From Thermodesulfobacteriota bacterium (GTDB lineage: Bacteria > Desulfobacterota_D > UBA1144 > Nemesobacterales > CSP1-2), in assembly GCA_035559815.1 (NCBI GenBank), contig DATMAT010000018.1, positions 1 through 55,505 of the forward strand: a DNA stretch of 55,505 nt. Reading direction: 5' to 3'. Positions 20,237-30,403 of this stretch are shown one piece after another; position 1 is the first letter of the stretch, and every line of letters starts with the position of its first letter. Below the pieces are notes generated by a model, which worked only from the letters and a program-made list of their open reading frames with translations, had not been told where the DNA came from and searched no databases. Position numbers and translations under genes: made by a program.

Positions 20237-23200
20237 CTAAATACTCTCCTTCATTATCTCGGATAACGCGTTTTTGCTACTTGCCGTTAACTCCTCTTCC
20301 CCTACTTCCTGGGCTAAAGATAGAGTTTCCTCATAACACCTCTTAGCCTCTTCATAATTTTCCAGGGCCCGATAAACCCTTCCAAGATTATGAAGAACCC
20401 ATGCTTCTCCCCTTTTATCTCCGAGTTCTTTTCTTATTCTCAAAGACTCCTGATATGATTTCCAAGCCCCACGGTAATCACCCATCTCATAATACACGTT
20501 TCCGATAGAGTTTAGAATATATCCTTCAACCCTCTGGTCTCCGGCTGCTTTTAGAATATCAAGAGCTTTCTGATTGCATCCTAATGCCCTTTCATAATCG
20601 TGTAAGCTGAGGTACACCACACCCATGCCGCTAAGGGCTATTCCTTCCTGTATGGTTTTTCCGGTCCTCCTACAAACTTCCAAAGACTCCTGGTAGTAAG
20701 AAAGAGCCTCCTGGTAAAGACCTAGATTCCAGCAAACTACTCCCAGGCTGTTTAGCACAGTCCTAACCTCTTCCTCATCGCCTATTTTTTTCTTAATATC
20801 CAAGCTCTCTTGATAGTACGAGAGGGCCTCATGATAATCAAGCAGATTCTGTCGAAATATATTCCCGATTAGGCTGAGCACCCTACCTACAGAGGCCTTG
20901 TCTTCTAATTCTTTAAAAATCTCTAAAGCGTATTGGTAATGCTTCAGCGATTCTTTATAATCCCCTAGGATTTCATGAATAGCAGCAATGGAGCTTAGGA
21001 TACTGGCCTCTTCAAGCCTGTTTCCCAACCCTCTGCTTATACCGAGCGCCTCTAGATAATACTTTAGGGACTCTTCATAATTACCGAGACGCCAATACAC
21101 ATTGGCGATAGCGCTCGGAACAGCGATCACCCCGGAGAAACTAAGTGTACTGTATCTTCTCTCCTTGATTATTCTCCAACACTCTTGGTAAGTCTTTAAA
21201 CAGGATTGATAGTCGCCCATGTCTCTATAAACACTGCCTATATTGAATGTACAAGTATGCTGGCCGAATATTATCCCTAAGTCTCTATAAATCTTTAACG
21301 CTTCTTCTAGGCATGATAAAGCATCTTTATAACGCCCTAGCTTTCTATAAATATCTCCAAGACTTACCAGCTCAAACCCTTCCGCTTCTGTGGCTTTCAA
21401 CTCCCGATGAATATTTAAAGACTCAAGATGGCATTTCAGTGCCTTATCATAGTCGCCCGAATGCCAATGTATAAAACCCATGCCCCTTAAGGCCTTTCCC
21501 TCTCCTGATTTATCACCGATCATCTTCTTAAGATTAAGGGCCTTTTTACCGATCTCTTTAGCCTTTCGGTATTCCTTCATAACACTCAAGAATTCCGCCT
21601 GTCTTATATACACGTCGGAAAGCCTTCTCTCATCATTTAGTGACATTGATAATTCTACGAGTTCATCCAGGATTTTTTTCTGCTCCTCTCTCTTTTCCGT
21701 AGCATCGTAGATGTTCTCCATATCCAGAAGAACGTCTATCTTCCTCTGTCTGTTCAGCCCGTTCTCAGGCATCCCAGACAAGCGCTTTAGAGCCTCGCCG
21801 TAGAAACTAATCGCCTCGTTGTTAGCGTATACTTCCTTCGCCTTTCTACCTGCCATATTCAAATAATGAAATGCCTTTTCTCGATTATCCGTCCGGCTGA
21901 AGTGATGGGCAAGAATCTCATATAGCTCTTCAATTCTATCTAAGTACAGCTCCTCGATGGCCGTTCCCACCCTTTCATGAAGCTCCTTTCTTTTTTGAAC
22001 CAGGAGGCTGGAATAAGCTACATCATGGGTCAGAGCATGTTGGAACGCATATTCAGAGTTCGGAGAAAAACCGGTCTCATAGATCAACTCTGAATTTCTC
22101 AACGCCAATAGATGGTCTTTAAGGTCTTTATCACCGGACACGGTTTCGAGCAGATCAAGGCTAAACTCTCTTCCAACGACGGATCCAATTTGAAGAATTC
22201 TCTTTCGGTTTTCATCTAACCTATCTATCCTAGCCATTATTACATCCTGTACCGTGCTCGGGATTTCTAATGGCGATACGAGCCTATTGACTTTATACCC
22301 ACCGTTGGTCTTTACGATTATCCCGGTCTCCAAGAGCGATTTTGTCAGCTCTTCTATGAAGAACGGATTACCCTCCCCTTTCTTGTTGATCAGTTCAATA
22401 ATATCATTCGGCAGACTGTGGGTTTCCAGGAGAGCTTCTGCCATTTTAGCGCTTTCATCTCCAGAAAGATTATTCAACAAGATTTTCCTATGATAATCCG
22501 TCTCTCTGAATGGCTGGAAGTAATCCGGCCTATAGGTGAGAATTAACAGCACCGGTAATGTACCAAGGCTATCCGTGAGAAAGGCAAAAAAATCTTCAGA
22601 GGTCTTGTCTATCCAGTGAAGGTCTTCTACAACCAGTACCAGGGGACAAACCTTTCCGGTTGCTACTATCACTTTTCTGACCGCCTCGAATATCTCCGCT
22701 CTTCTCAGTTGAGCGTCCATAACGGCGACCGAAGATTGCCCTCGGTCTACGGAGAGAAGATATCTAAAATAGGGTATGGCTGGCTCCAGGTCGTTTCCGA
22801 GGGATAATGTGGCTTCATCGATTTTTCTAATTATGTCATCTTCGGCATCCGTTTCCGCTATGTGGAAAGCCTTCTTTAAAATCTCTATTACCGGCAGATA
22901 AGATACGGATTTACCGAAGGAAAGACATCTACCCTCAAGCCAGCTTACGTTATCGTTGGCGAGTGATTTCCGGAACTCCAGGAGTAATCGAGATTTGCCT
23001 ACCCCCGCCTCCCCCACCACCGAGACGATTTGCCCATGCCCGTTTTTCACTTTATTTAAACATTGTTCAAGTATGCTTAGCTCCTTCTCTCTTCCGGTAA
23101 AGGGCGTTAGACCGCGTTCTATCCCGATGTCGATCCGTGTCCGGGCACTTCGAGCCCCTATCACCTCGTATGCTCTTACCGGTTCTGACTTTCCCTTTAC

Positions 23201-23962
23201 CTGAACCTCCCCAAGAGGACGTGTAAGAAAGTACCCGCTTACCAGCCTGTAAGTGCTCTCAGAGATGAGTATCTTCCCGGGTTCGGCTAGACTCTGAAGA
23301 CGGGAGGCCAAATTAACCGTGTCCCCTATAGCCGTGTAGTCCATCCGTAGATCGTTGCCTATAGTTCCAACAACCACTAGGCCGGTGTTGAGCCCTATCC
23401 TCATCCTGAAGTCAATAGACCTCTCTTCTTTGAGCTTGTCGCCGTACCCTTTTATCGCCTTCTGAATAGCCAAAGCCGCACTCAAAGCTCGGTGAGGATG
23501 GTCCTCCAAAGCTATAGGAGCTCCAAAAAGGGCTAAAACCCCATCTCCCAAGAACTGATTAATCGTTCCCTCATAGCGGTGCACCTCTTCTATGATAATC
23601 TCAAAGCACCGATTCATTATGGAACGCACATCCTCCGGGTCCAGCTTCTCTGAAAGTTCGGTGAAGCCGTGTAGGTCCGCAAAAAGTGCGGTTACCTGCT
23701 TTCGCTCTCCTTCGAGGCCGGCTCTGCCGCCGAGTATTTTTCGGGCCAGGTTCTCGGGGATATAGTTCAGCGGCTGGTCTAATATAAACGCGTCAGCTTT
23801 ATTGACGCCATTGTCCAGCTTCCCCCCGCATTCAAAGCAAAACTTGTTGGCTGGAGGATTTTCTCTCCCACAGCTCAGACACTTAAGCCCTAGCTTGCTT
23901 CCGCACTGTCCGCAAAACTTTGCCTCTTCCGGGTTGTCATGTTGGCAATTAGAGCATCTCAT
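20237..23962 (-). CDS. Double zinc-ribbon / class III nucleotide cyclase / AAA-type ATPase / TPR protein 3
   Basis: 1241 residues. Two zinc ribbons, CSNC...CGQC at 3-20 and CLSC...CFEC at 28-45. The cyclase domain spans 85-270 with D96 (LFADLHGF), D140 (FLGDG) and N217/R221 (TVNLASRLQ); all key residues are present, making it the most convincing active cyclase of the three. Walker A is GEAGVGKS (317-324) and Walker B VLVVEDLHWID. The C-terminal third has about ten TPR units with regular A-L-x-C/Y-x-x-x-A-L spacing, ending with a TPR-rich GDYRGAWKSYQESL stretch. The TPR set is far more regular than in the two tandem paralogues at 6.5-13 kb, so it is a separate branch. ATG at 23960-23962, with no strong ribosome site. 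Confidence 0.85.
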   Translation of the reverse strand: MRCSNCQHDNPEEAKFCGQCGSKLGLKCLSCGRENPPANKFCFECGGKLDNGVNKADAFILDQPLNYIPENLARKILGGRAGLEGERKQVTALFADLHGFTELSEKLDPEDVRSIMNRCFEIIIEEVHRYEGTINQFLGDGVLALFGAPIALEDHPHRALSAALAIQKAIKGYGDKLKEERSIDFRMRIGLNTGLVVVGTIGNDLRMDYTAIGDTVNLASRLQSLAEPGKILISESTYRLVSGYFLTRPLGEVQVKGKSEPVRAYEVIGARSARTRIDIGIERGLTPFTGREKELSILEQCLNKVKNGHGQIVSVVGEAGVGKSRLLLEFRKSLANDNVSWLEGRCLSFGKSVSYLPVIEILKKAFHIAETDAEDDIIRKIDEATLSLGNDLEPAIPYFRYLLSVDRGQSSVAVMDAQLRRAEIFEAVRKVIVATGKVCPLVLVVEDLHWIDKTSEDFFAFLTDSLGTLPVLLILTYRPDYFQPFRETDYHRKILLNNLSGDESAKMAEALLETHSLPNDIIELINKKGEGNPFFIEELTKSLLETGIIVKTNGGYKVNRLVSPLEIPSTVQDVIMARIDRLDENRKRILQIGSVVGREFSLDLLETVSGDKDLKDHLLALRNSELIYETGFSPNSEYAFQHALTHDVAYSSLLVQKRKELHERVGTAIEELYLDRIEELYEILAHHFSRTDNREKAFHYLNMAGRKAKEVYANNEAISFYGEALKRLSGMPENGLNRQRKIDVLLDMENIYDATEKREEQKKILDELVELSMSLNDERRLSDVYIRQAEFLSVMKEYRKAKEIGKKALNLKKMIGDKSGEGKALRGMGFIHWHSGDYDKALKCHLESLNIHRELKATEAEGFELVSLGDIYRKLGRYKDALSCLEEALKIYRDLGIIFGQHTCTFNIGSVYRDMGDYQSCLKTYQECWRIIKERRYSTLSFSGVIAVPSAIANVYWRLGNYEESLKYYLEALGISRGLGNRLEEASILSSIAAIHEILGDYKESLKHYQYALEIFKELEDKASVGRVLSLIGNIFRQNLLDYHEALSYYQESLDIKKKIGDEEEVRTVLNSLGVVCWNLGLYQEALSYYQESLEVCRRTGKTIQEGIALSGMGVVYLSLHDYERALGCNQKALDILKAAGDQRVEGYILNSIGNVYYEMGDYRGAWKSYQESLRIRKELGDKRGEAWVLHNLGRVYRALENYEEAKRCYEETLSLAQEVGEEELTASSKNALSEIMKESI

Positions 23963-24293: not shown

Positions 24294-25850
24294 TTAACCC
24301 AACCCATACCTTTTGATCTTCTTTATCAGCCCCTGCCTGGTTAGCCCCAGAATCTCAGAAGCCCTCTGTTTGTTTCCTCCGCACCTTCCGAGCGCCTCTT
24401 TTATCATGTGGATCTCCATCTCTTCTAAGGTTACACTCGAAAAATCGACATCTACTTCCTTAGGGGCACATGGCGATGTGCCCCTACTTCTTACTTCATC
24501 CCTGATATTCTCGGAAAGGTCACTCTCCTCGATTACCTCACTCTCAGCTAGTATGGCAGCGCGCTTTACCTCATTCTGGAGTTCCCTCACGTTTCCGGGC
24601 CAGCTATATCTCACCAGGCAGTCAATCGCCCCCGGAGAAAAGCGCATGGGGCTTCTTCCCAGCTCGTTCGTGAAGCCAATCAGAAAATACTGGGCGAGAG
24701 TGGGGATATCTTCCTTCGTTTCACGTAGGGGCGGCATGTGTATGTGAACGACATTCAAGCGGTAATACAAATCTTCACGGAAACTCCCTTTTTGTATATC
24801 GTTCTTCAAGTCTTTATTTGTGGCCGCGATAACACGGACATCAACCTGGATTGTGTTCCTTCCCCCAACCTTTTCCATTTTTCTCTCCTGTAGCACACGG
24901 AGGAGTTTAGCCTGGGCCACAAGGCTCATATCCCCTATCTCGTCGAGAAACAAGGTTCCGCCGTTCGCCATTTCAATCTTTCCTACTCTTTTCTCTACCC
25001 CGGTAGCTACCCCTTTCTCAATTCCGAAAAGTTCGCTCTCGAGCAGAGTCTCCGGCAGTGCCGCACAGTTAATGTCAACAAAGGGTTTCTCCAGGCGGGA
25101 GCTATTGTAATGGATGGTACGGGCAACTAGTTCCTTACCCGTGCCGCTCTCTCCGGTAATTAAGACGCTTAGTGGGCTATCCGCAACCTTTTCTATAAGC
25201 TTTATAATCTCTTGTACCTTAGGGCTGGCTCCTATTATGTTGCTGACAAAGAATCTGCCCTTGGCTTTTTCTCTCAAGAGAACGTTTTCTTGTTTTAGCC
25301 TGGACTTTGCCTCTTCCAATTCCCCTATTAGCCGGGCGTTCTCTATCGCCACGGCCGCGTGAAAAGCGAATATCTCCAGAACCTCTTCATCTTCCTTGGA
25401 AAAAAGACCATCTTTTTTGTTCAATACCTGTAATACACCAACCGGCCTTCCATCGATGTTTTTCATGGGGACACAGAGAACGGATTTTGTGATATAACCG
25501 GTTTGTCTATCTACTTCCGGGTTGAATCTAGGGTACATGTAAGCATCATCAACATTCACTACCTTACCCCACTTGAGAACCTCTCCGGCTATTCCCAAAT
25601 TAGCATCGAAGCGTATTACATCAGTAATCCCGATTGCCACTTTAGACCAAAGCTCGTCTTTCTTCTCATCGAAGAGAAAAATAGTCCCCCGGTCTGCCTC
25701 CACCACTTCTGCCGACTTCTTTACCAAGAAGTCAAGAAGCATATTCAAATCCTTCTCAAAGCTCATCATGTGGCAGAGGTCAAACAGGGTAGAGTATTTG
25801 TGTACTAATTTGCTTTCTTTCTCTTTATTCACTCCGCCGGAGTTCATCAT
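24294..25850 (-). CDS. GAF-domain sigma-54-dependent transcriptional activator (EBP 2)
   Basis: 518 residues, paralogue of the activator at 3477-5024. GAF domain 20-175, AAA+ domain 205-437 with Walker A GESGTGKE (233-240) and GGTLFLDE (297-304), and the Fis-type helix-turn-helix at the end (KQRASEILGLTRQGLIKKIKRYGL). The GAFTGA loop again reads GVATGV (280-285). Residues about 455-464 (RGTSPCAPK), in the linker before the DNA-binding domain, are encoded by a 22-base palindromic repeat (24463-24484). Start: two ATGs at 25845-25850; no good ribosome site. Target genes are unknown; no sigma-54 promoter was found next to it. Confidence 0.9.
   Translation of the reverse strand: MMNSGGVNKEKESKLVHKYSTLFDLCHMMSFEKDLNMLLDFLVKKSAEVVEADRGTIFLFDEKKDELWSKVAIGITDVIRFDANLGIAGEVLKWGKVVNVDDAYMYPRFNPEVDRQTGYITKSVLCVPMKNIDGRPVGVLQVLNKKDGLFSKEDEEVLEIFAFHAAVAIENARLIGELEEAKSRLKQENVLLREKAKGRFFVSNIIGASPKVQEIIKLIEKVADSPLSVLITGESGTGKELVARTIHYNSSRLEKPFVDINCAALPETLLESELFGIEKGVATGVEKRVGKIEMANGGTLFLDEIGDMSLVAQAKLLRVLQERKMEKVGGRNTIQVDVRVIAATNKDLKNDIQKGSFREDLYYRLNVVHIHMPPLRETKEDIPTLAQYFLIGFTNELGRSPMRFSPGAIDCLVRYSWPGNVRELQNEVKRAAILAESEVIEESDLSENIRDEVRSRGTSPCAPKEVDVDFSSVTLEEMEIHMIKEALGRCGGNKQRASEILGLTRQGLIKKIKRYGLG
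24463..24484. repeat. Palindromic repeat in the linker of EBP 2
   Basis: GGGGCACAT, four bases, ATGTGCCCC, followed by TACTT. Same GGGGCA...TGCCCCTA pattern as the other coding-region palindromes at 8228, 11651 and 12149. It falls in the flexible linker between AAA+ and DNA-binding domains, where extra residues are tolerated. Confidence 0.7.
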
Positions 25851-26453
25851 CTAGCTGCTCAAAAGCCCCTTCTCATACCCTAACAAAAAGGATTCTATCA
25901 CAGAGTCTGAAGAAGCGTCAATGTAATTGTTGTATGTGAGGTATCGTAAGGACCATCTGGGCAAGGATATCGATATAGGCTTACCGAAATGAGCTTCTAA
26001 TGAATGAATGATCAAACCATCTAACCAAGAATAAAACCAGATAAGGAAAATAGGAACGCATGTATGCGTTCCCTACAAAACTATATATTCTAGCAAAGCC
26101 AGATGAGAAACTCTAGCCTGGTCGCAGGGGTGTTTATTCCTTTCTAATAGGAGAGGGGTTCACTCATCCTTCCCCGATTTAATCGGGGAACTACTCAGGA
26201 CAGGCTCTGAATCATGAGCAGTTTGACTAGCTGACTACCCCGGCCGAACATGGTTATTTCATTAGTCATTTTCAGCGGATATACATCCGTTCATCCTGAG
26301 CAGGGTCGAAGGATGTATTTTTACGTCTCTCGATCCTTCGGCACAGCGGGACAGGCTGTGCTCAGTGAAAGCAGATTGCTTTCATTGTGTCAATCCTCGA
26401 AATCCAGTCGTTATCACATCAATAACGACCTGACTTGTGAGCATTTAATAGGA
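25851..26453. repeat. 600-base gene-free stretch with three repeat types
   Basis: 26053-26072 is a palindrome, GGAACGCAT-GT-ATGCGTTCC, followed by CTAC. 26167-26200 carries CCCCGATTTAATCGGGG and CTCAGGACAGGCTCTGA. 26270-26380 holds AGCGGATATACATCCGTT, CATCCTGAGCAGGGTCGAAGGATG and CCTTCGGCACAGCGGGACAGGCTGTGC, all REP-like words. The apparent frame here on the plus strand is built from these repeats and runs antiparallel to a real gene. No regulatory element for the neighbouring genes was recognised. Confidence 0.6.
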
Positions 26454-26939
26454 CTAATTCACCGCCTTCTGCTTCTGGTAAAGAAACCAGGTAACCAGGA
26501 TAAGCAGTACCGCCAAGGAAATTTGCAGTATGACCACCGAGGCAATCTTCAGGTAGGCAAAGAGAGGGCTTACGTAGAGTATGAGCCAGCCGCCGGCGAT
26601 ATCTCCGAATGCCGAAACAAACGAGGCCAGTATTATAAGCAGTTTCCAAAGGCTTCTGATTCCGGTAAACAGAATCAGGTGATTAAGGGTTACCAGGATT
26701 ATGGCCATAGAAAAGAAATGGAAATGGGCTTCCTCGAGCATCCCTATGTAGGTTTTGGCCGGCCTGAACGTCTCTTCGTTACCCCTGTAGTAATCAACCA
26801 CCGAGTTGTAGCTAAAACCGATTTTCAGGTATAAAAGCAGGTTGGTCAACCAGAGGAAAAAAAAGAATATTAGGGTAAAGACTATGACTAATTTTAAGAG
26901 GCTGTTTGTCCTTATATCCCCGGATATGAAAAATCTCAA
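26454..26939 (-). CDS. Four-helix inner-membrane protein of the flavin electron-transfer cluster
   Basis: 161 residues with four hydrophobic segments (about 15-38, 72-95, 98-122, 128-152). The motif E-E-A-H-F-H-F-F near residue 70 and N-H-L-I-L in the second helix place three histidines close to the membrane, which could hold haem or contact quinone; this is inference. Its start is two bases downstream of the stop of the FMN-binding gene, so they are tightly coupled. Its partners (FMN-binding protein, porin, ApbE) suggest it passes electrons between the quinone pool and the periplasmic flavoprotein. I do not recognise a named family. Confidence 0.65.
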   Translation of the reverse strand: MRFFISGDIRTNSLLKLVIVFTLIFFFFLWLTNLLLYLKIGFSYNSVVDYYRGNEETFRPAKTYIGMLEEAHFHFFSMAIILVTLNHLILFTGIRSLWKLLIILASFVSAFGDIAGGWLILYVSPLFAYLKIASVVILQISLAVLLILVTWFLYQKQKAVN

Positions 26940-26940
26940 T

Positions 26941-27504
26941 TTAGTCCTTTACCTCTGCGGCTAACTTATTCTTTCCCAGCACCGCCGACTGGAATACGGC
27001 CATTATTCGTCTTACCGAGCTGGCCATCGAGTTAGAGGTTATGGTAGCCCCGGTTATGTTGGGGATATCCCTTCCCACCTGCAGTGAATCCGACGGTTTT
27101 TTCTTGTTAAATAGATTTATCCAGCTATCCGGCGGCATGTAATCCGGGGGCTCGAAGAAGGCCAGGATCTCCACCTGCCTGAGCGTTCCGTCCGGATTTA
27201 TGACCACCATTATTGTCTCGGTCACGGTTCTCAATAAGTGGGTATCGATAACGGCGTAGCCAAGCGTTTCATCTCCTCTTTTTCCCTCATAAAATAGGTA
27301 TAACTTCGATTCAAGCTTGGTTCTGGCCGTGGATGCTATCTCTTTGGCCTGTTCTTCGGTGAGGTAAACGTGTCTCTTCTCGACGCGGTCTGCCCCGGGG
27401 AAGGCCAATTTCAAAGCCTCGTCCCTGGTCATGTAAACCTTGGGGAAAGCAAGAGCGGGTATGGCTAAAATGAAAAAGATTGTTAAAATCGATAATTTTT
27501 TCAT
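26941..27504 (-). CDS. Periplasmic FMN-binding domain protein (flavinylation site NITGATITS)
   Basis: 187 residues from the ATG at 27502-27504. An earlier in-frame start at 27555 would bury the signal peptide 17 residues in. Signal peptide MKKLSILTIFFILAIPALAF, then a short helical region, and an FMN_bind domain (GYAVIDTHLLR, ETIMVVINPDGTLRQVEIL) with the motif P-N-I-T-G-A-T-I-T-S near residues 148-157. In RnfG/NqrC and relatives the second threonine of (S/T)GAT carries FMN through a phosphoester bond added by ApbE, whose gene lies 1.9 kb upstream. Here the usual aspartate before the motif is asparagine. Role: covalent-flavin electron carrier facing the periplasm. Followed at once by a 4-TM protein gene. 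Confidence 0.85.
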   Translation of the reverse strand: MKKLSILTIFFILAIPALAFPKVYMTRDEALKLAFPGADRVEKRHVYLTEEQAKEIASTARTKLESKLYLFYEGKRGDETLGYAVIDTHLLRTVTETIMVVINPDGTLRQVEILAFFEPPDYMPPDSWINLFNKKKPSDSLQVGRDIPNITGATITSNSMASSVRRIMAVFQSAVLGKNKLAAEVKD

Positions 27505-27581
27505 AAAAAAAATACCCGCCTTGAGATCTTGAACAGGAATTAATCTCTCAAACAAGCTTAAATCCGGGTAGAGTTTAAAAT

Positions 27582-27608
27582 GCAGGGGCAGTATAAACCT
27601 GCCCCTGC
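27582..27608. terminator. Strong 10-bp hairpin between porin and FMN-binding genes
   Basis: GCAGGGGCAG (27582-27591) pairs perfectly with CTGCCCCTGC (27599-27608) around a 7-base loop. On the transcribed strand only a short ATTTTAA follows, so it may act as a partial terminator or as an mRNA stabiliser that sets a higher porin level. It could equally be another member of the palindrome family of this genome. Confidence 0.45.
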
Positions 27609-27685
27609 TATCAAATGGACTTGATTCTTAGCCACTTTTAAACGAGACCCAACTAAATACAGCATGCACGAATATTTAACCTGAC

Positions 27686-29077
27686 TTAGAACACATATCC
27701 AATACCCAGATTAAACTGGTTGTCTGCAGTGTCAGCCTCATTGTCTCTCCACTGGTAATCCGCTTTTATTACTATCTGAGGTATAGGCTTGTAGCTAAAG
27801 CCGAATGTGACGAGCTGCCGGTCGTTCGCCGGGTCCGAAGAGAACCCGGAAGGGACTTTATACTGCGTGTTGTATTTCTCGTATCTGACAAAAGGTGAAA
27901 AGTATTCGAGATAAGGACCGAGGTCAACCAGGGACAGTACGTTGTATCCAGCCTCTAAGTAGAAACCATAAAGCTCGCTCCCCACAGACTGATTTCCAGT
28001 AAATCCGTTATTCTGATTTATGAGTCCGGCGTCGCTTATATCGATCCAGGCAAAGAGTCCCCTAGCCTCCAACCCTCTCCACTGAAATTGAGCGTCCGCC
28101 TCATATATCTGGACCAAGCCGCCTATTTTTTCCCCATCTACGCTTTCATTTTGGCCGGAATTCCCTATGTAGAAGGAACCGCCCAATACTAGTCCGGGGA
28201 TTCCGTTGTACTCTGCTCTTGTAGCAAAGGCCACGTCGTTTATTCTCGGCCTATTCCCGTTTTGTCTTCCTCCTCTTATACCTTCGCTGGCGGTAAAGCC
28301 TCTTGAATCAAGCCCGTTTAGCACATAAGCCCTATAGTTAAGACCGGGTATGACCTGACCGAAGACTCCAACTCCTAGGTCCCTCCATGTAGTAGGGATA
28401 ATAAATCTCTCGACATCTGGTCTCAAGACACCGAAAAAGGTCGTCGGTTCGTGTACCTCGTTAATTATGCCGATGGGAACAAGGTTGAGCCCGGCCCGCA
28501 GGTTGGCGTAATCGTTAATCAGGAAGTTTAAATTAGCAAATTCGACCGCTACTTCTCCCGACTGGCCATTCGCATTCTCATCGGTATTGCCATGCTCGAA
28601 TTCTATCTCGGAGTTGAAAATAATCCTATCATTATACTTATAGCCAAAATACAAAACAGCCCTGAGCATATCGGCGATATTACTCTGACCGTGAATGAAC
28701 TGAGCATTGGCCTCGCCATAACCACCTATGGATACGCCCTTATCCACTAGATAAACCTTGGAGGCAGCCGGTCCCTGCCCGTATATCATTTCGTATGTCG
28801 GCTCCTCAACCACGGCGGCAGATTTGATGTTTTCTATCTCTTCGGCAAGGACATCCAGCTTTCTTTCAATCTCCTTTACCTTTTGGTCTGGAATCCCCTC
28901 AGACCGGAGGCTCTGAACCTCATCGGTGAGGCTTTGAATCTTCTTCTCCAGCTCCTTTATACGCTCTTCTTGACTCGCATCCTGGGCTGAGGCGTTTAAA
29001 CCAGAAAAAACGAAAAAGACGGCCATGAAGGCCATCATTAACCTAAACCAAAGGCGATGTGAAGCCCTCTCCTTCAT
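27686..29077 (-). CDS. Outer-membrane porin-like beta-barrel with N-terminal coiled coil
   Basis: 463 residues. Signal peptide to about residue 32. Coiled coil 35-85 (SQEERIKELEKKIQSLTDEV and following heptads), which in porins of this type trimerises or links to the cell wall. Then a barrel rich in alternating aromatic strands (FGYKYNDRIIFNSEIEF, YGFYLEAGYNVLSL), ending in the typical N-L-G-I-G-Y-V-F with a terminal phenylalanine. Resembles the phosphate-selective porin O/P or alginate-porin group; the cargo is unknown. AAAGGAGG lies 8 bases before the ATG. Its promoter overlaps a Fur-type box, and the two flavin-system genes follow on the same strand. Confidence 0.8.
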   Translation of the reverse strand: MKERASHRLWFRLMMAFMAVFFVFSGLNASAQDASQEERIKELEKKIQSLTDEVQSLRSEGIPDQKVKEIERKLDVLAEEIENIKSAAVVEEPTYEMIYGQGPAASKVYLVDKGVSIGGYGEANAQFIHGQSNIADMLRAVLYFGYKYNDRIIFNSEIEFEHGNTDENANGQSGEVAVEFANLNFLINDYANLRAGLNLVPIGIINEVHEPTTFFGVLRPDVERFIIPTTWRDLGVGVFGQVIPGLNYRAYVLNGLDSRGFTASEGIRGGRQNGNRPRINDVAFATRAEYNGIPGLVLGGSFYIGNSGQNESVDGEKIGGLVQIYEADAQFQWRGLEARGLFAWIDISDAGLINQNNGFTGNQSVGSELYGFYLEAGYNVLSLVDLGPYLEYFSPFVRYEKYNTQYKVPSGFSSDPANDRQLVTFGFSYKPIPQIVIKADYQWRDNEADTADNQFNLGIGYVF

Positions 29078-29101
29078 ATTTTTATCCTCCTTTAATTAAA
29101 T

Positions 29102-29149
29102 TGATAATCATTTTCAGAATCAACTTACCAGAGTTTGACCGGGTGTCAA
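29102..29149 (-). promoter_or_regulatory. Promoter with overlapping Fur-type box before the porin/flavin operon
   Basis: On the minus strand TTGACA (29144-29149), 16 bases, TAAGTT (29122-29127), preceded by TGG as an extended -10. The inverted repeat TGATAAT-C-ATTTTCA at 29102-29116 matches the Fur 7-1-7 consensus (TGATAAT-N-ATTATCA) at all but one position. It covers the predicted transcription start near 29115, so iron-loaded Fur would block the promoter. Confidence 0.6.
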
Positions 29150-29252
29150 GAGGTTAAAAGATAATAGAGTTATAAAGAAAAAATCGGGGACAGACTGAGG
29201 AGTTAGGGTGTTAGCCCAATTTATACAATGGCAAGCAAATGGACAAAGCTAT

Positions 29253-29304
29253 AAGGAACGCATACCTGTACTGAGCAGGGTCGAAGTATATGCGTTCCTA
29301 CACA
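29253..29304. repeat. GGAACGCATA-type repeat
   Basis: AAGGAACGCATAC...GTATATGCGTTCCTACAC with CTGAGCAGGGTCGAAG in the loop. The same arms occur at 26053, 37597 and 38413. It lies between the ApbE gene and the porin promoter, inside a 318-base gap that also holds the porin promoter. Confidence 0.65.
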
Positions 29305-29395
29305 TCAATAAATAACTATTTCACTTTGAGCAACGAGCCCGGCTGCTTATTTAGGTAATTACTATGCTAAGATAAGTTCATCTCGAGTTTGCCAG

Positions 29396-30403
29396 CTATT
29401 GAAGGGAACCAGACTCAGGAATCTCGAAACCTTTAAAGAAAGAATCCTTATAAATAGAAAGATTGCCCTTATGCCCGGTCACGATAATCGACCCTACCCT
29501 CTCTAGCTTTTCAAGGGTCTCGACGGATTTCTCTTTTCCCATGACCGACACGGCGGTGGAAAGGGCATCGGCATCGGTTGCATTTTCTGCAATTATGGTG
29601 ACGGATGGAACGGATTCAACGGGATATCCGGTTCTAGGGTCAATTATATGGGAGAAGCGCTTGCCGTTTATCTCAAAATATCTTTCGTAATCACCGGAGG
29701 TAGAAACCGCCATATCCCTGACTTTGATGAAAGTAAGCGCTTCCTCTTTCATTCGCGGGTGTCTAATTGCTATCGTCCAACCCTCCTCCCCGGGCGGCGA
29801 GCCGATTGCATAGATATTTCCGCTGAAGTTTATCACGCCGCTTTCAATCCCATTAGCCTTTAGAATCTTTAAAGCTCTATCCACAGCGTATCCCTTCCCG
29901 ATTCCGCCAAAGTCGATGGAGAGGCAGGATGATTTTAACTGAATCTCTTTTTCCCGAGGGTAGAGTGCTATTTTCTTTGACCCTACGCACTCGGAGACCG
30001 TTCTCTTTATCGTTTTCTCATCGGGCATGTCGTCTTTTTGTTGGCTATTTCTCCAGAGGTCAACGAGATCCCCCACGGTTATATCAAAAGCCCCATCGGT
30101 CAAATTGGAGAAGTAAACGGCTCTCTCGGTAAGCTCGACAAACTCTGGGGGAACCTTGATCCTTCCTTTCCCGGCTTGGGAATTCACCAGGGAGAGATTG
30201 CTATCGGTCTTGTAGTTGCTGAGCATATCGTCTAATCTCTTCACCTCGCTGTAGGCATCGAATATAGCCTCGTTGCATAATTCTTTAGTCTGGCAATAGA
30301 GCCTGAACTCAATCACCGTTCCCATTACGAAAAAAGCTCTCTCCACCAGGACAGGTTTGGGTGTAAGAGTGATGGAGAATAAGAGGGGTAGTATCAAACT
30401 CAT
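29396..30403 (-). CDS. apbE: FAD:protein FMN transferase (ApbE)
   Basis: 335 residues; N-terminal hydrophobic stretch 1-14, likely a short signal or lipoprotein-like anchor without an obvious lipobox. ApbE motifs are in order: M-G-T-V-I-E-F near 27, G-A-F-D-I-T-V-G-D-L, D-F-G-G-I-G-K-G-Y-A-V-D, S-T-S-G-D-Y-E-R, H-I-I-D-P-R-T-G-Y-P and T-D-A-D-A-L-S-T-A. It transfers FMN from FAD onto a threonine of target proteins outside the cytoplasm, using magnesium. The natural target is the FMN-binding protein 1.9 kb downstream. Separated from the porin by 318 bases with a separate promoter, so the two halves of the cluster may be controlled differently. Confidence 0.92.
   Translation of the reverse strand: MSLILPLLFSITLTPKPVLVERAFFVMGTVIEFRLYCQTKELCNEAIFDAYSEVKRLDDMLSNYKTDSNLSLVNSQAGKGRIKVPPEFVELTERAVYFSNLTDGAFDITVGDLVDLWRNSQQKDDMPDEKTIKRTVSECVGSKKIALYPREKEIQLKSSCLSIDFGGIGKGYAVDRALKILKANGIESGVINFSGNIYAIGSPPGEEGWTIAIRHPRMKEEALTFIKVRDMAVSTSGDYERYFEINGKRFSHIIDPRTGYPVESVPSVTIIAENATDADALSTAVSVMGKEKSVETLEKLERVGSIIVTGHKGNLSIYKDSFFKGFEIPESGSLQ

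Follow-up and report, generated by a model that had tools for sequence, protein, structure and literature searches.

Four genes lie on the minus strand at positions 26454 to 30403 of the window, the whole 55,505-nucleotide stretch of DNA analyzed here, in the order apbE, coiled-coil porin, signal-peptide FMN_bind protein, and four-helix membrane protein (4TM), each of them found where the first-pass annotation had placed it (Table 1). The host is an uncultured member of Candidatus Dadabacteria whose 3.97-Mb genome encodes exactly one ApbE and one FMN_bind protein, which leaves the ApbE with one visible client. The FMN_bind and 4TM genes are probably translationally coupled, since the TTG start codon of the latter lies one base past the stop codon of the former. 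The stem-loop that separates the porin and FMN_bind genes may be an attenuator or a stabilizer of the mRNA, from which unequal expression could result; a known RNA leader was rejected for lack of an Rfam match. Short, similar, dispersed REP-like pieces (ggaacgcat...atgcgttcct) occupy intergenic positions 29254-29302 and 26054-26078. The minus strand also encodes, at 20237-23962, a 1,241-residue protein that joins a zinc ribbon to adenylate/guanylate cyclase, AAA, and multiple TPR domains; a GAF/sigma-54 activator gene (24294-25850) adjoins it.

Table 1 Features of the four-gene locus (window positions) and FMN_bind-ApbE fusions in homologous loci (locus positions)
Feature	Position	Strand	Basis or remark
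apbE, FAD:protein FMN transferase, 335 aa	29396..30403	minus	PF02424, 1.7e-87; single copy in genome
-35 element TTGACA, porin promoter	29144..29149	minus	read directly; relatives with same layout
-10 element TAAGTT, 16-nt spacer	29122..29127	minus	read directly; relatives with same layout
Predicted Fur-type operator TGAAAATGATTATCA (coding strand)	29102..29116	minus	5 bases downstream of TTGACA-N16-TAAGTT
Outer-membrane porin, 463 aa; signal peptide, coiled coil about 33-88, then beta barrel	27686..29077	minus	
Stem-loop, 10 bp, G+C-rich, porin/FMN_bind gap	27582..27608	minus	fold energy z -3.8, surrounding 81 nt
FMN_bind protein, 187 aa, signal peptide	26941..27504	minus	PF04205, 31.1 bits (cut-off 22), 3.7e-7; single copy in genome
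Thr154 codon, predicted flavinylation site in NITGATIT	27043..27045	minus	invariant in 17 homologues
4TM protein, 161 aa, unnamed family, predicted membrane electron-transfer partner	26454..26939	minus	AlphaFold2 model
TM2 segment with invariant E69, H72, F73, H74, F76, H87	26679..26735	minus	69 sequences, many phyla
FMN_bind-ApbE fusions	L092:3879-5402, L099:6397-7983, L122:5715-7229, L123:6296-8020, L139:6185-7906		

ApbE matches its family profile and carries the catalytic motifs GGIGKG, HIIDPRTG, and DADALSTA; the FMN_bind protein, with the ATG at 27504 as its likeliest start codon, scores above the profile cut-off and combines secretion with a motif of the (S/T)GA(S/T) type. An FMN_bind domain with covalent FMN is also found in RnfG and NqrC, and the window protein has weak similarity to rnfG, but no other Rnf or Nqr genes stand beside it, and we rejected identity with these subunits at 21.4 bits against the 102-bit cut-off of NCBIfam TIGR01947. 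The predicted porin had nothing above cut-off in Pfam, whereas its homologue in locus L092 scored 32.6 (cut-off, 20.9) for Porin_O_P (PF07396, OprP/OprO). AlphaFold2 models the window porin (pLDDT 86) as a general-porin barrel preceded by a coiled coil at the N terminus, and the Foldseek matches of this model are OmpU/OmpF-type general trimeric porins (best E value, 7e-15).

The promoter of the porin gene was missed by a consensus promoter scan, its -10 element being too weak. The site TGAAAATGATTATCA that follows it has one mismatch to TGATAATNATTATCA (13 of 14 positions), which bears out the earlier statement that it is a single change away from the Fur consensus, and likewise one mismatch to the delta-proteobacterial Fur consensus TGAAAATNATTTTCA (PMC545781). 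It is one of only three sites as good in the 3.97-Mb genome, which holds 31 sites at two or fewer mismatches to TGATAATNATTATCA against 13 for a reversed control pattern; no recognizable iron genes adjoin the other two best sites (L149, L150). Five FUR-family proteins are encoded in the host genome. Among relatives in the host clade (families f1 and f3), all nine porin promoters have a Fur-type site matching at least 11 of 14 positions, whereas the 65 control gene starts have no such site (p = 9e-12). Because both the site and the gene order are kept in relatives, they are more than chance, and we rejected a fortuitous Fur-like sequence given the conservation of its position and letters. The same class of site precedes the gene for an FTR1-cytochrome c protein in eight of nine loci, the host's among them (host site, TGAAAATAAATTTCA), and its place is almost fixed, 208 to 233 nt before a conserved codon; the exception, L055, comes from a genome in which the 4TM gene was not found. 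Conservation in the host clade and recurrence at the host FTR1 gene support the proposal of Fur control.

Beyond the host clade, the regulatory picture varies. Sites matching at least 12 of 14 positions occur, mostly in intergenic gaps of the cluster, in Nitrospirota and others (L080, L086, L088, L101, L106, L118, L120, L122, L123), and porin promoters outside Dadabacteria, taken as a set, show weak or no enrichment. Within Dadabacteria, the porin promoters of families f6 and f8 (the latter marine) lack a Fur-type site; those of f6 carry instead the palindrome GGATATTNAATATCCATAATAT (upstream regions of L129 and L130), present as a single copy in a 1.6-Mb f6 genome (G034:C1:767203-767224), and f8 has an altered form of it. 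Another regulator has therefore possibly taken over in these families, and the f6 palindrome is apparently the target of a dedicated regulator other than Fur.

A 4TM profile run against a single genome of each species picked out 92 loci; the 80 that we kept come, by the taxon given in each record, from Dadabacteria, Nitrospirota, Gemmatimonadota, Acidobacteriota, Latescibacterota, Armatimonadota, Verrucomicrobiota, Planctomycetota, Deltaproteobacteria, and Oligoflexia. The trio of porin, FMN_bind, and 4TM genes recurs in order across about nine phyla: where Dadabacteria loci have room for it, the three genes share a strand in this order (porin, 20 of 20), and of the 44 loci outside Dadabacteria with room, 43 have a preceding porin on the same strand, although these counts are not independent because loci within each clade are related. 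The gene order on which the first-pass annotation had staked its reading is thus kept in many phyla, and we rejected a lineage-specific cluster. ApbE varies in place, being encoded upstream on the same strand, between FMN_bind and 4TM, convergently downstream, or elsewhere, depending on the Dadabacteria family. A strong ApbE is present in 40 of 42 Dadabacteria genomes with 4TM versus 3 of 16 without it (p = 2e-8; 58 genomes of the phylum). In five loci the middle gene is a fused FMN_bind-ApbE (Table 1; two confirmed by Pfam), which is strong evidence that enzyme and substrate act together. Synteny in many phyla and these fusions support the earlier suggestion that the cluster transfers electrons through a covalent flavin.

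Several variations accompany the module in particular clades. In marine Dadabacteria (aligned from L035, L037, L038, L039, and L040) the flavinylation motif drifts through SGAT, SGST, AGST, ANST, and SNST while the threonine is kept, and ApbE is retained though divergent. Marine clusters also encode a secreted helical protein of 116 to 130 residues (L035:4345-4695, L038:5536-5886, L039:2802-3191, L040:7647-8039) that adjoins FTR1 or is retained where FTR1 is absent; the one scanned had no match in Pfam. In f1 and f3, small Cys-rich DUF6686-like proteins are encoded just upstream of the module (L045:2604-3027, L047:9024-9251, L033:10093-10305), with none seen in the window.

Iron permeases of more than one family neighbor the module. 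All six loci of the Gemmatimonadota/Latescibacterota type with room encode FeoB divergently from the porin (a Pfam check of Feo neighbors identified feoB in L073 and feoA in L072), and full-length FTR1 adjoins the module in 9 of 23 Dadabacteria loci. In family f6 the FTR1 permease is fused to cytochrome c and divergent from the porin, and some marine f8 genomes have a plain FTR1 inside or beside the operon. Among loci outside Dadabacteria, TonB/ExbBD genes occur in six and a FUR gene in five, several of these being Nitrospirota loci, and FTR1 is absent from the vicinity of most. The host encodes its FTR1-cytochrome c protein, with a periplasmic cytochrome c domain and the upstream Fur-type site described above, separately on contig C70 (L163:3993-6383 of genome G000). 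No true FeoB was found in the host genome, where the best matches reached about 1e-13 (real FeoB proteins elsewhere reach at least 1e-50), and Nramp and P19 (PF10634) are absent from it. These FeoAB, FTR1, and TonB-ExbBD neighbors, together with the site at the host FTR1 gene, uphold the link to iron made earlier. Since the module recurs, often near iron transporters and under an apparent iron-controlled switch, its function is probably flavin-based iron reduction outside the inner membrane for uptake.

AlphaFold2 models 4TM as four long helices (pLDDT 88). Neither the single sequence nor the 69-member family matched a family in Pfam or NCBIfam, the 69 members giving one spurious, unrelated match in Pfam and nothing else. 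The sequence had no match in the PDB, and a fold search of the PDB returned nothing at E below 0.001, weak four-helix (MAPEG) matches at E of about 1, and no known cytochrome. Spread of the gene on plasmids was rejected, as no plasmid match was found. Invariant positions across the 69 sequences include K99 and W118 besides those of TM2 (Table 1), and the conserved histidines (H72, H74, H87) all lie on that one helix. An N-in topology, with TM2 running from outside to inside, is suggested by the N-terminal start and the distribution of charges; E69, H72, and H74 would then lie near the periplasm and H87 nearer the cytoplasm. In ideal-helix geometry, H72 and H87 fall on one face, separated by 60 degrees and about 22 Å, a spacing like that of histidines on one helix face in b cytochromes with two hemes. 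Because the other helices lack conserved histidines, heme in 4TM would need a homodimer, with one or two b-type hemes probably at its interface and H72 and H87 (H74) as ligands.

The same residues admit a heme-free reading, in which ExxHxH and H87 form a metal site or a DsbB-like quinone site and electrons pass directly between the flavin and quinol or the bound metal. The invariant E69-x-x-H72-F-H74 resembles metal ligands, and the confinement of conserved histidines to one helix and the lack of a cytochrome fold match would suit such a site. We nevertheless think this unlikely, because the one-face spacing of H72 and H87 suits b-heme helices and other flavinylation-linked membrane partners are heme proteins, including homodimeric FezC (PMC11334425). 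It rivals the heme step alone, and the module could serve iron reduction under this reading too.

Our favored interpretation, held with moderate confidence, is that the four genes constitute a Fur-repressed, flavin-based module for assimilatory iron reduction. When iron is short, Fur would leave the porin promoter, allowing synthesis of porin, FMN_bind, and 4TM; ApbE would load the secreted FMN_bind protein with FMN at Thr154, and 4TM would draw electrons from the quinol pool and hand them to this periplasmic FMN. The flavin would then reduce Fe(III) or an Fe(III) chelate admitted by the porin, and Fe(II) would enter through a separate permease, which in the host would be the FTR1-cytochrome c protein and in Gemmatimonadota FeoB. 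Given the homodimer that heme would require, as proposed for FezC, we therefore suggest a path from quinol through 4TM heme and FMN to Fe(III) and on to FTR1 or FeoB; the heme, the quinol donor, the direction of electron flow, the Fe(III) acceptor, and the cargo of the porin are parts that we infer. More tentatively, and with somewhat more doubt than confidence, we propose that the 4TM family is a previously undescribed transmembrane electron carrier, a probable dihaem b homodimer, which with the covalent-flavin protein and the porin would make a complete Fur-controlled ferric reductase working with FeoB or FTR1 in about nine phyla.

The direction of flow could conceivably be the reverse, with Fe(II) oxidized during uptake by FTR1 and its electrons passing from the FTR1 cytochrome c through FMN and 4TM to the quinone pool, a ferroxidase-coupled permease with logic like that of yeast Fet3-Ftr1. 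The cytochrome c domain of Dadabacteria FTR1, its position next to the module in f6, and the Fur-type sites common to FTR1 and porin in the host clade fit such an arrangement, but FeoAB of Gemmatimonadota and Latescibacterota carries Fe(II), for which no oxidation is needed, and the scarcity of nearby FTR1 outside Dadabacteria also counts against it; we rate it quite improbable. Against our favored interpretation in its simple form stand six marine Dadabacteria genomes that retain the module without FTR1 or true FeoB, an FTR1 co-occurrence that is marginal (p = 0.056), the lack of a Fur-type site in marine and f6 Dadabacteria, and the failure of 4TM to match a known cytochrome fold. Those six genomes, the lack of a terminal reductase in the cluster, and the idea that flavins substitute for iron (PMC8238504) would also accord with a respiratory or stress-defense outlet, in which the flavin reduces a periplasmic acceptor other than iron and expression follows iron since flavins stand in for heme proteins when iron is low, but the repeated adjacency of iron permeases from different families (FeoAB, FTR1) in different phyla makes this very unlikely.

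Our interpretation has precedents, in that flavinylation clusters tied to iron assimilation, some of them Fur repressed, have been described (PMC8238504). The PepSY-like clusters (PepSY_TM, DUF2271, ApbE, and DUF4198; Fur repressed in two species [PMC8238504]) resemble our module in their ApbE, covalent-flavin periplasmic protein, membrane electron-transfer partner, Fur control, and association with iron assimilation. They differ in that here FMN_bind is the substrate, a dedicated porin belongs to the core, and 4TM has no sequence similarity to PepSY; we rejected membership, with no PepSY_TM in the whole host genome and 4TM unmatched. P19-FTR1 clusters with an FMN-binding protein, of which those with FMN_bind are mostly Gram-positive (PMC8238504), share the combination of FTR1 permease and FMN_bind protein, but the host has no P19 and the present module has porin, ApbE, and 4TM; this assignment was rejected for want of P19, even with FTR1 present on contig C70. 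FezC (DUF4405), whose heme sites are proposed to form by homodimerization (PMC11334425), is likewise a small membrane protein with a link to flavinylation or to iron, and homodimer heme is proposed for both; 4TM, however, lies outside Pfam and NCBIfam, and DUF4405 membership was rejected since none of the 69 members has similarity to it. Fur-controlled porins are known from delta-proteobacteria, where Geobacter and Desulfuromonas have psp and a porin-feoAB operon (PMC545781). Fur-box control, the box type TGAAAATNATTTTCA, and one case adjoining feoAB are common ground, but those porins were described without a flavin protein or membrane electron-transfer protein. A literature search, with most subscription papers outside its coverage, found no published account of this gene set, of the 4TM family, or of an FMN_bind-ApbE fusion in such a setting. 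Iron-linked flavinylation clusters and Fur-controlled porins are thus already known, and what is new, within that search, is the gene set with the 4TM family.

FeoB transports Fe(II) only, and to our knowledge the source of periplasmic Fe(II) for FeoB in many diderm bacteria is unknown. A module of this kind beside iron permeases would, if our interpretation is true, supply a candidate periplasmic reductase across many phyla, with Nitrospirota, Gemmatimonadota, and marine Dadabacteria among them. The five flavinylation-linked electron-transfer classes (PMC8238504) and DUF4405 (PMC11334425) would be joined by a further membrane partner, and a membrane family missing from Pfam and NCBIfam would be assigned a function.
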